The notes under the pieces were generated by a model, which did no database searches, was not told where the DNA came from, and worked only from the letters and a program-made list of their open reading frames with translations. From Fulvivirga imtechensis AK7 (GTDB taxonomy: Bacteria > Bacteroidota > Bacteroidia > Cytophagales > Cyclobacteriaceae), in assembly GCF_000331535.1 (NCBI RefSeq), contig NZ_AMZN01000087.1:1-64000 (forward strand): a DNA stretch of 64,000 bases, in the 5' to 3' direction. Both the position numbers and the translations under genes were made by a program. Numbering within the stretch: the first letter of the stretch is position 1; every line of letters begins with the position of its first letter. Below, in pieces: positions 9,639-11,742 of the stretch.

Positions 9639-9663
9639 CGTTTGCAAACGTTTACAAATGTAA
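9639..9663. promoter_or_regulatory. Adjacent palindromes between the DUF2116 gene and ssb
   Basis: CGTTTGCAAACG (9639-9650) is a perfect 12-bp palindrome. It is directly followed by TTACAAATGTAA (9652-9663), a near-palindrome. Both sit in the 187-bp divergent region between the DUF2116 gene and ssb, 33-57 bp upstream of the DUF2116 start. They look like operators; the binding protein is unknown. Confidence 0.45.
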
Positions 9664-9793
9664 TTTAAACGAATACAAACATTTATCATACGATTATCGC
9701 TTTTTTCTTGTCTTTACTTTGTGTAAATGAATTAGATGAACAATATTTCATCATTTAATTAAAAATAAAGTTTAACTATTAATTATTATTATC

Positions 9794-10132
9794 ATGAAAA
9801 ATTTAAGAAACAGTGTTCAGCTTATAGGAAGATTAGGTAAAGATCCCGAAGTAAAGAATTTGACCAGTGGAAAGATGATGGCTACCTTTTCACTAGCCAC
9901 CTCGGATAGCTACAGGAATGCGGATGGAGAGAAAGTAGAAGACACACAATGGCACAATATTGTTGTTTGGGGAAAGAAGGCGGAAATAGCTTCGGAATAC
10001 CTGAAGAAAGGTGCCGAGATAGCTGTTGAAGGTAAGTTGATACATCGCTCTTATGAAAATTCCAATGGAGAAAAGAAATATATCACTGAAATCAATGTAA
10101 ATGAGATATTGATGTTAGGAGGGAAGAAGTAG
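9794..10132 (+). CDS. ssb: Short single-stranded DNA-binding protein, no acidic tail
   Basis: 112 aa comprising one OB fold: NSVQLIGRLGKDPEVKNL, ATSDSYRNADGEKVEDTQWH, VWGKKAEIASEYLKKGAEIAVEGKL. It binds ssDNA in replication and repair. Chromosomal SSBs normally continue into a flexible tail ending in an acidic DDDLPF-like peptide that recruits partners. Here the protein ends at LMLGGKK, so it is either a secondary SSB or a mobile-element-style one. It is immediately followed (4 bp) by the first TIR element of the DUF559 locus. Confidence 0.9.
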   Translation: MKNLRNSVQLIGRLGKDPEVKNLTSGKMMATFSLATSDSYRNADGEKVEDTQWHNIVVWGKKAEIASEYLKKGAEIAVEGKLIHRSYENSNGEKKYITEINVNEILMLGGKK

Positions 10133-10136
10133 GGGA

Positions 10137-10463
10137 ACCCACCCCTGCCCCTCCCAAGAGCTCCCAAGAGAGGGTTTTCGGCCGGTGCTAATGGGGAAGG
10201 TTGAGGTGTTGTTATGAGCCGGTTGCGTAGGACTTTTGTGAAGTATTCTACTGTAGCCGGTAATAGGTTGAATTCAGAGCTATGTACACCCGTCCTTTGT
10301 CAACCTATGTACCTGCAGCAAAAAAACAAAATGCTGAAGTTCCAGAAAGTTTATGGTCGACACAACTTCCAGCATAGCTCATCACCAGATTCTAGCTAAT
10401 CAAATCTCCTATGAAATGCAGTCCAAAATCCCCTCCTCGGAGGGGCAGGGGTGGGTAAAACAC
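10137..10463 (+). repeat. TIR element copy 1 of the DUF559 locus
   Basis: Bounded by the perfect 18-bp terminal inverted repeat ACCCACCCCTGCCCCTCC (10137-10154) and its reverse complement (10439-10456). Seven further bases (AAAACAC) are shared with copy 2. Internal hairpins include CCGGTTGCGTAG with CTACTGTAGCCGG (10218-10262 region) and TGCTGAAGTT with AACTTCCAGCA (10332-10375 region). Five differences from copy 2 in 327 bp: 10174, 10419, 10420, 10421 and 10425. Non-coding in appearance, MITE-like or a structured RNA. Confidence 0.92.
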
Positions 10464-10468
10464 TAATA

Positions 10469-10891
10469 ATGAAAAGAAAAATACTTTATTATAACCCAAA
10501 GCTTAAACCGCTGGCTCTGAAACTACGAAAAAATATGACGTTGTCGGAAGTACTACTATGGCAGGAATTGAATGGCAGACAAATGATGGGCTACGATTTT
10601 GATCGGCAGCGGCCGATTGATAATTATATTGTGGATTTTTATTGTAAAGATCTAATGTTGGCGATCGAGGTAGATGGAGAAAGTCATTACCACGACAACG
10701 CCTCGGAAAGAGATCAGGCAAGACAAAAGAAGTTGGAGAATTTAGGTGTGCGGTTTTTAAGATTCGATGATCTGGATGTGAAGCAAAGAATGGGTTATGT
10801 TCTGAATACAATTTCCGAATGGATTTTGGAGAACGGACCCACCCCTGCCCCTCCCAAGAGCTCCCAAGAGAGGATTTTCGGCCGGTGCTAA
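10469..10891 (+). CDS. DUF559 / Vsr-like endonuclease-domain protein
   Basis: 140 aa from the ATG at 10469. A GTG at 10451 lies inside the preceding repeat and is less likely. The fold is DUF559, a relative of the very-short-patch-repair and PD-(D/E)xK nucleases: LSEVLLWQEL, then PIDNYIVDFYC, then AIEVDGESHY, then the R-x-K-x-LENLGVRFLRF segment. These acidic residues are the presumed metal-binding site. The last 17 or so codons (PTPAPPKSSQERIFGRC) are encoded by the left TIR of repeat copy 2, so the natural C-terminus is replaced by repeat sequence. It lies exactly between two direct copies of a TIR element; a mobile or repeat-associated role is inferred. Confidence 0.85.
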   Translation: MKRKILYYNPKLKPLALKLRKNMTLSEVLLWQELNGRQMMGYDFDRQRPIDNYIVDFYCKDLMLAIEVDGESHYHDNASERDQARQKKLENLGVRFLRFDDLDVKQRMGYVLNTISEWILENGPTPAPPKSSQERIFGRC

Positions 10892-11163
10892 TGGGGAAGG
10901 TTGAGGTGTTGTTATGAGCCGGTTGCGTAGGACTTTTGTGAAGTATTCTACTGTAGCCGGTAATAGGTTGAATTCAGAGCTATGTACACCCGTCCTTTGT
11001 CAACCTATGTACCTGCAGCAAAAAAACAAAATGCTGAAGTTCCAGAAAGTTTATGGTCGACACAACTTCCAGCATAGCTCATCACCAGATTCTAGCTAAT
11101 CAAATCTCCTATGAAATGTTATCCCAAATCCCCTCCTCGGAGGGGCAGGGGTGGGTAAAACAC
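10837..11163 (+). repeat. TIR element copy 2 of the DUF559 locus
   Basis: Direct repeat of copy 1, offset exactly 700 bp and about 98.5 percent identical. TIRs at 10837-10854 and 11139-11156. The left end supplies the C-terminal codons and stop of the DUF559 gene. The right end lies 30 bp from the stop of the convergent exbD-like gene. Confidence 0.92.
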
Positions 11164-11193: not shown

Positions 11194-11742
11194 TCAATTC
11201 GAAGGCTCTGCAATTGAAATATTCATAGGAATACCCTTTCGCCCTTTTTCGAAAAGCCTTTTCTTTTCAGGAATACTTAAGTAGAGGTTTCTATATTCGG
11301 CAGGGGTCAGACCGGTTCGGTCTGCATAGATCTGATAGTAAGCTGCTTTAACTTCATCAAGTACTTTGATAAACATTTCCTGGGATGTGCCTCTATTTGT
11401 CTTTATAGATACTATTGCCTTCTCAGGGCTTTCACTTAGCGCTTTATTACGACCGTAGTTTAATATGAATTCACTTATTTCATGCCTTATGCCGTGTAGA
11501 TTTTCACGGGTTTCACCTTCCACCATAATTTTGTCATCAGAGTTGACCTGGATCTTGAAAAGATTTTTTTCATGAATTTCTACAGGTACAATGTTTGATT
11601 GCTCTGGTGGCAGCAACAAACTGAGACCCTTGTCGTTTACAATGGTTGTAGTGATCATGAAAAAGATTAGTAGCAGGAAGGCGATGTCCGCCATAGAAGC
11701 GGTATTGATCTGCATTTGATTGTTTCTTTGTGCATTTTTCAT
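11194..11742 (-). CDS. ExbD/TolR-family biopolymer transport protein
   Basis: 182 aa. One transmembrane helix (residues about 18-37, MADIAFLLLIFFMITTTI) contains the conserved Asp19 that carries protons in ExbD/TolR stators. A periplasmic domain of about 140 residues follows. With ExbB/TolQ it would energise TonB-dependent import or envelope movement, but no exbB or tonB is adjacent. The gene is divergent from the BatA-type gene, with 90 bp between starts. Confidence 0.88.
   Translation of the reverse strand: MKNAQRNNQMQINTASMADIAFLLLIFFMITTTIVNDKGLSLLLPPEQSNIVPVEIHEKNLFKIQVNSDDKIMVEGETRENLHGIRHEISEFILNYGRNKALSESPEKAIVSIKTNRGTSQEMFIKVLDEVKAAYYQIYADRTGLTPAEYRNLYLSIPEKKRLFEKGRKGIPMNISIAEPSN

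Follow-up and report, generated by a model that had tools for sequence, protein, structure and literature searches.

Genes for small nucleases of the DUF559 family are paired with palindromic repeats on their flanks, and our results show that this pairing is both real and general. It is probable, in our judgement, that gene and repeats form a selfish mobile element in which a small homing-type nuclease is accompanied by its cognate, REPIN-like palindromic element (hereafter E). The results support the earlier note on the Fulvivirga imtechensis AK7 locus described below, which had put forward a repeat-nuclease element as a hypothesis for that locus.

In the window (the whole 64,000-nucleotide stretch of F. 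imtechensis DNA analysed here), two 327-bp copies at 10137-10463 and 10837-11163 lie in direct orientation with an offset of 700 bp and differ at five positions (10174, 10419, 10420, 10421 and 10425), exactly as the earlier note had described. The 18-mer ACCCACCCCTGCCCCTCC forms the left ends of both copies on the forward strand (10137-10154 and 10837-10854) and, on the reverse strand, the right ends (10439-10456 and 11139-11156), so that each copy has perfect inverted ends; the 17-bp core of this 18-mer, allowing up to three mismatches, is found four times in the window against 0.08 expected, and none of 100 shuffles gave four. The perfect 18-bp inverted repeats claimed for the 327-bp units therefore hold but the unit length does not, because the final 7 bp of both copies (AAAACAC, ending at 10463 and 11163) lie beyond the inverted repeats, leaving 320 bp for the element proper (E1, 10137-10456; E2, 10837-11156, in the same orientation; 98.5% identity). 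E1 has a palindrome at either end, and its right-end hairpin (CCCCTCCTCGGAGGGG, 10430-10445) has the pyrimidine arm first, a motif type that recurs at DUF559 loci elsewhere; a 61-aa open frame lies inside each 327-bp copy. The nuclease gene (10451-10891, + strand) sits between the copies, opening at the edge of the first and taking its C-terminal codons and stop from the second, an arrangement proposed before and confirmed by the frame coordinates. That is, the GTG at 10451, which gives the longest frame, is within copy 1, the likely start, ATG 10469, is 6 bp beyond copy 1, and the last codons and the TAA are within copy 2. The neighbours are ssb upstream (9794-10132, + strand, PF00436), with a GTAG 5 bp ahead of E1 that belongs to the ssb stop region, and an ExbD-like gene downstream (11194-11742, - strand, PF02472).

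The window gene matches PF04480 with 97 bits (E 7.6e-28) against a curated Pfam cut-off of 20.6, which places it in the DUF559 family; its remaining Pfam matches are MTES_1575 and DUF2726 (the latter under its cut-off), and a known transposase, which an insertion sequence would have, is not among them. Profile searches against solved structures returned the DUF559 protein 3hrl (E 2.4e-32), the homing endonuclease I-Bth0305I (3r3p, E 5.2e-7) and PvuRts1I (E 8e-4). Foldseek, run with an AlphaFold2 model of mean pLDDT 89, ordered the matches as 3hrl (E 3.3e-8, the only one with E < 0.001), 3r3p (E 0.0016; ranks 2-3, TM 0.79 and 0.78 on target), mitoribosomal proteins, PvuRts1I and, at rank 7, Vsr (1vsr, E 0.045). 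Homology to the catalytic domain of a homing endonuclease is thus indicated by profile and by Foldseek, and the predicted structure has I-Bth0305I as its nearest solved fold outside DUF559. T30, D62, E73, D75, H79, D88 and six more residues are invariant in 25 DUF559 sequences, and dN/dS, which could be computed for 10 of 12 DUF559 pairs, lies between 0.06 and 0.43 (with dS near 1.5 in three of these), pointing to purifying selection on the nuclease fold. Judged by its sequence, then, the enzyme is homing-endonuclease/Vsr-like (EDxHD) and not a RAYT.

By inspection, many DUF559 loci among 18 relatives' loci are likewise bracketed by repeats, and an exact repeat of at least 14 bp common to both 400-bp flanks was found at 25 of 51 DUF559 loci vs. 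5 of 245 ordinary ORFs (one gene being counted twice, as L012 = L057). Since this exact-repeat score is blind to many loci, we defined a hairpin score (at least 6 bp, a C-rich pyrimidine 5' arm, within the 400-bp flanks) on one set of loci and tested it on two others. The defining set A consisted of 50 loci of relatives (L034, L039 and L057, a duplicate of L012, were left out); set B of 48 held-out loci of the phylum, a non-random choice of the best-listed among 150 listed matches (L116 was left out); and set C of 70 out of 80 named records (10 at contig ends were left out; L247 and L251 repeat set A loci). By title, set C also includes Cyanobacteria, Planctomycetota, Chloroflexi, Thermotogae, Neomarinimicrobiota, Pelosinus and others, many of these records being metagenome bins whose placement may be wrong.

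Hairpins were present on both sides of the gene at 20/50 set A loci vs. 0/221 control ORFs, at 39/48 of the best-listed, held-out set B loci vs. 0/218 control ORFs, and at 26/70 set C loci vs. 1/253 same-contig pseudo-genes; the corresponding values for either side were 32/50 vs. 5/221, 45/48 vs. 2/218 and 65/70 vs. 19/253. Eighteen of the 50 set A loci and three of the 48 best-listed set B loci had no hairpin on either side. The mirror hairpin (purine arm first) flanked both sides of one of 48 best-listed set B loci and of none of 50 in set A, and was mildly enriched on either side (4/50 vs. 3/221, 4/48 of the best-listed vs. 0/218, and 9/70 vs. 7/253 for sets A, B and C, respectively). Chance, or a general richness in palindromes, is ruled out as the source of the pattern by the ORF controls, the same-contig pseudo-genes and the reversed palindrome. 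The absence of a statistical link between repeats and DUF559 genes would, according to the earlier note, have spoken against a repeat-nuclease element; the loci instead stand far above the controls, and the counts per genome correlate as well, also within families (below).

The hairpins have a recurring companion: in 102/250 cases CACCCC lies no more than 25 nt away from the nearest hairpin, vs. 25/8,240 background windows. In these 102 cases the motif is on the gene side of the hairpin 79 times, on the far side 19 times and on both sides four times; thus, where it is seen, the gene mostly sits between two elements that face it, as in the window. No enrichment was found for GTAG, the tag of REPtrons, within 10 nt of the nearest hairpin (18/250 vs. 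1176/15080 in the background), nor for CGTC within the same distance (10/250 vs. 902/15080).

Nuclease similarity follows repeat similarity, a comparison that the earlier note had proposed. Among pairs of loci without detected homology in the outer flanks, nuclease identity correlates with flank similarity with a rho of 0.36 (170 of 182 loci, 14,073 pairs) while the highest of 500 permutations gave 0.08; rho is also 0.36 after removal of four near-identical duplicates (166 loci, 13,416 pairs; highest of 300 permutations, 0.06). A strong repeat is held in common by 0.7% of the pairs below 40% protein identity, rising to 87% of the 68 pairs at 70-95%. The trend extends to comparisons of Bacteroidota with other phyla (1,155 pairs) as far as 65% identity, and fails in the last bin, which has 21 pairs. 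In Pontibacter sp. BT731, two nucleases at unrelated sites carry the same hairpins. Related nucleases, as judged by these alignments, therefore carry related repeats at unrelated sites, and the repeat is specific to the DUF559 lineage. With each lineage having its own repeat, a search based solely on the 18-bp end of the window element would miss how general the pairing is.

Several observations speak of mobility. On a single contig of one genome, three different sites carry copies that are 93-94% identical over 553-710 bp. We noted by eye that the DUF559 copies L040, L056 and L063 of genome G013 lie inside a larger, MITE-looking repeat with inverted ends like CCTGACTTCCGCA. The same site in HsdM is filled in two congeners, G005 (L047) and G006 (L048), where the nuclease region is identical at 340 of 341 positions and the surrounding host gene at 1088/1180 upstream (92%) and 160/181 downstream. 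This one pair shows the pattern expected if the nuclease was recently copied from one species to the other. The palindromes beside these two near-identical nucleases vary in copy number, possibly a natural series of repeat gain.

The HsdM insertion is one of many in frame. DUF559 domains lie in open frames of at least 300 aa in 43 of the 150 listed matches, and the hosts, checked in part and identified by Pfam, include LeuS, MetH, methylmalonyl-CoA mutase, a UvrD-type helicase and HsdR, as well as HsdM, Eco57I-type, type ISP and N6/N4 methyltransferases and a TetR regulator. Hairpins occur on both sides, inside the frame, at 14 of 20 large-frame loci fetched from among the listed matches, and in one methylmalonyl-CoA mutase gene (L203) the nuclease is flanked on either side by a pair of hairpins, the layout also seen in the window, with all four in frame. 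An HsdR gene (L206:2875-6891) has, beside its in-frame DUF559 domain (443-547), an in-frame GIY-YIG domain (251-316). No Pfam intein domain was listed for the host proteins searched (eight at E 1e-3 and seven at E 1e-8). Some of the in-frame cases may have been inherited vertically.

LeuS shows alternative states of one site. Among 30 genomes, LeuS site 1 holds the nuclease in five (G190 included) and a solo repeat in one (G135), while the other 24 have a short loop there (34-50 residues); within a single genus (g34) the site is filled in 2 of 12 sampled members. A second LeuS site is filled by the nuclease in two other genomes (G116 and G174); in G158 (L244) this second site is occupied by another insert, about 94 aa long and, judged by eye, nuclease-like. 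The LeuS insert of G237 is bounded by 21-bp inverted repeats that differ by one mismatch, and terminal inverted repeats, which are a mark of insertion sequences and MITEs, are thus present there as well as in the window (18 bp, perfect).

Occupied and empty alleles of one site are likewise found at the window locus. Of 14 further congeners, eight have ssb adjoining exbD, and none of the eight has a DUF559 gene or a C-rich hairpin between the two; the spacer is just 55-77 bp in five of the eight, and one spacer has a lone CACCCC or its complement. DUF559 genes kept in place without repeats, which the earlier note had named as an observation against the idea, were accordingly not seen at these syntenic sites, where both gene and hairpin are missing. 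Three of the spacers (L127 in G014, L128 in G008 and L129 in G001) appear by eye to contain a different repeat type, GTCTCGTCCC with GACAGACCAC. No target-site duplication is visible at the window site or in LeuS, where the available empty alleles are not from close relatives, and the close pair G001/G014, in which exact junctions were sought, shows a half-element deletion and a complex indel instead.

Copies of E without the nuclease also exist in the F. imtechensis genome (6.7 Mb in 225 contigs). The genome-wide check suggested earlier found the E family of the window at three further places, on contigs C56, C61 and C70, all diverged and none at a DUF559 gene, in addition to a lone 17-mer match with two mismatches at C70:43584. 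Three more DUF559 loci of this genome (L013, L015 and L016) are bracketed by palindromic repeats whose sequence differs per locus, and a further one, L012, has them on its 3' side at least (all by inspection). On C56, an ssb paralogue 83% identical to the window ssb is followed by a single E and no DUF559; this E matches E1 at 81% of the gap-free columns (66-76% identity in BLAST). The duplicated block corresponds to window positions 9639-10461 and to L024 on C56, comprising ssb and one element, and its right edge is the element end. Because the ssb-E block is duplicated at this level of divergence (ssb 83%, E 81%) while E1 and E2 are 98.5% identical, the E behind ssb predates the duplication, and the nuclease and the second E came later. 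Further, the first five of the 7 bp that trail the window copies also trail the C56 copy, and hence the second E may have arisen by duplication of the resident E. Empty sites and single-copy alleles, both of which the earlier note had proposed to look for, therefore exist, the former between ssb and exbD and the latter on C56 and in LeuS of G135.

A cut-and-repair reading best accounts for the direct copies of E that flank the gene, for a solo E that is either left over or pre-existing, and for the homology to homing endonucleases. Under this reading, E would be a spacer enclosed by two inverted ends, both of them C-rich and able to form hairpins, and the common form of the element would be the gene between two E copies, in direct orientation in the window, with the dispersed, gene-less copies of E being non-autonomous or left over. 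We infer that the target which the nuclease recognises, and then cuts or nicks, is its own E or else a site that is E-like or empty, and that repair by recombination with a donor would then copy the gene in and leave E on both sides, while recombination between the two direct copies would produce a solo E. The ends of E would be readable in translation, which would allow units to settle in frame inside host genes. The REP/RAYT-style pairing suggested by the earlier note, in which a nuclease-like protein disperses the repeats, is accordingly borne out as far as the link between repeat and nuclease is concerned, at the level of loci, genomes and lineages; dispersal of the repeats by the nuclease is a likely consequence of the proposed mechanism, and the enzyme is not a RAYT.

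Alternatively, DUF559 might be a free-standing homing endonuclease that invades pre-existing C-rich palindromes, which spread in their own way. The older solo E behind ssb and the solo E in LeuS of G135 are what this alternative predicts, and palindromes outnumber DUF559 genes (e.g., 20 C-rich palindromes vs. five DUF559 genes in the F. imtechensis genome). To relate the two genome by genome, we counted the pattern CCCCTCN{2,14}GAGGGG in 296 genomes of the phylum (Bacteroidota), of which 169 have DUF559 above the Pfam cut-off, and scored as DUF559-positive those with a best PF04480 match of E < 1e-15, weaker matches (E > 1e-15) being scored negative. Eighteen genomes scored negative in this way have at least 10 palindromes, which again favors independent palindromes. 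However, palindrome numbers follow DUF559 presence, with a median of 8 per genome with DUF559 (n = 126) vs. 2 without (n = 170), compared to a median of 1 in both groups for the reversed pattern, and at least 20 palindromes are found in 32/126 genomes with DUF559 vs. 2/170 without. Permutation inside 24 taxonomic families (247 genomes) gave p ~ 2e-4 for this link. Moreover, a repeat peculiar to each nuclease lineage and found at unrelated sites is expected if the two travel jointly, and we therefore regard the invasion of independently spreading palindromes as unlikely.

Another possibility is that an HUH transposase of the RAYT type mobilises the palindromes, with DUF559 being a passenger or the repeats being its landing site. 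Y1_Tnp matches are present in 210/296 genomes, and among genomes with DUF559 the mean number of palindromes is 19.6 with Y1_Tnp and 6.3 without, so that Y1_Tnp has an effect of its own on the palindrome count, weaker than that of DUF559 (t = 3.0 vs. 8.8). Yet this effect is absent from DUF559-negative genomes (median 2 vs. 2 with or without Y1_Tnp, p = 0.72), whereas that of DUF559 persists in genomes without Y1_Tnp (median 6 in 20 genomes with DUF559 vs. 2 in 66 without, p = 0.01), and none of 20 Y1_Tnp (RAYT-type) genes has a C-rich hairpin on either side. We therefore rejected RAYT transposases as the main mobiliser, and a RAYT origin of the pairing seems quite improbable. It should also be noted that, in the 296 genomes, counts of the C-rich palindrome peak where DUF559 and Y1_Tnp co-occur, a peak that DUF559 alone does not explain. 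Finally, DUF559 as a Vsr-type repair enzyme for a cytosine methyltransferase or as a part of restriction-modification systems, with repeats that are incidental or terminators, is very improbable: the Caulobacter DUF559 protein VsrA is tied functionally to a cytosine methyltransferase (in the available part of PMC12907096), several in-frame hosts are restriction-modification genes and Vsr is a weak fold match, but no methyltransferase is among the five neighbouring proteins of the window tested with Pfam, LeuS, MetH and methylmalonyl-CoA mutase are among the hosts, and terminators need neither match the nuclease lineage nor sit in frame inside genes.

Our preferred reading, a homing-type nuclease travelling with its own E, may have a parallel in a second nuclease family. 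We used 20 of 24 GIY-YIG loci of relatives (L346-L368; four were too short), and 18 of these 20 standalone genes have a repeat of at least 14 bp common to both flanks, in direct orientation. Palindromes with GTCATYC were found in both flanks of 10/20 GIY-YIG genes vs. 0/221 control ORFs, 0/6 UvrC-type genes and 3/48 of the best-listed DUF559 loci, and in either flank of 13/20 vs. 20/221 control ORFs and 2/6 UvrC-type genes; a C-rich hairpin in both flanks was found at none of the 20. Standalone GIY-YIG genes and GTCATYC repeats may thus be a second pair, whose repeats are of another type than those beside DUF559, and GIY-YIG is a homing endonuclease family as well (PMC3943268, in part). We lean slightly towards the broader hypothesis that homing-type nucleases define a class of palindromic elements with two independent members, DUF559 and its C-rich hairpins, across many phyla, and standalone GIY-YIG with GTCATYC, which would spread by nuclease-stimulated recombination and no transposase chemistry, be tolerated in frame in essential genes without splicing, and be the source of a large share of orphan REP-like palindromes.

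Parts of this picture have precedents. A Thermosynechococcus DUF559 gene is filed under EDxHD homing endonucleases, in the intein section, in the portion of PMC9403480 consulted, so the earlier statement that no mobility system built on DUF559 has been described stands for the repeat pairing, in the literature searched, and not for the homing-endonuclease affiliation. The accessible portions of PMC12907096, PMC8861277, PMC9403480, PMC10969951, PMC1829167 and PMC6712171 contain nothing on repeats beside DUF559, and in the literature searched (which left out preprints and most subscription journals) we found no report of the pairing of DUF559 with cognate palindromes, of its spread or of in-frame inserts that look unspliced. 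A 2007 survey described, in the part available, fusions of SPOUT methyltransferases to GIY-YIG at the N-terminus or to DUF559 at the C-terminus, the latter domain being otherwise standalone, in a discussion from which repeats or mobility are absent (PMC1829167). REPs inside genes have been reported (PMC3116915 and PMC3733652, in part). The Rickettsia palindromic elements are similar to the elements described here in being palindromic repeats that lie in frame in many host genes; however, no nuclease partner is named for them in the available text of PMC10969869, while a nuclease is linked to the repeats in the DUF559 case.

Compared with known mobile systems, the DUF559 units resemble EDxHD homing endonucleases (I-Bth0305I) in their homologous catalytic domain and in the occupied and empty alleles of conserved genes, and differ from homing endonuclease genes in the pairing of DUF559 with its own palindromic repeats, in the many unrelated sites and in having no Pfam intein domain in the hosts tested. 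MITEs and insertion sequences likewise have terminal inverted repeats and small non-autonomous copies, but the window unit has no known transposase and no target-site duplication was resolved. With REPIN/REPtron (RAYT) systems, as far as the sources available describe them, the units share inverted palindrome doublets that form a small dispersed unit and repeats that flank the gene of a dedicated DNA-processing enzyme; unlike in REPtrons, this enzyme is a Vsr/EDxHD-like nuclease, the gene of the window unit being DUF559 and not an HUH tyrosine transposase, and the recurring neighbour of the hairpins is CACCCC, with no enrichment of GTAG or CGTC. These findings would give DUF559 a genetic setting and the C-rich palindromes a candidate source. 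They also name host genes (LeuS, MetH and methylmalonyl-CoA mutase) that have an in-frame nuclease in some species and solo-repeat or empty alleles in others, and the mechanism is therefore open to testing in laboratory strains. By analogy, DUF559 with E may be seen as a nuclease-based counterpart to REPIN-RAYT systems, resembling these without the HUH transposase and the GTAG tag, and as similar to a homing endonuclease gene, though one in which no splicing element is recognised; it is a variant of homing-type elements that comes near to being a separate kind.
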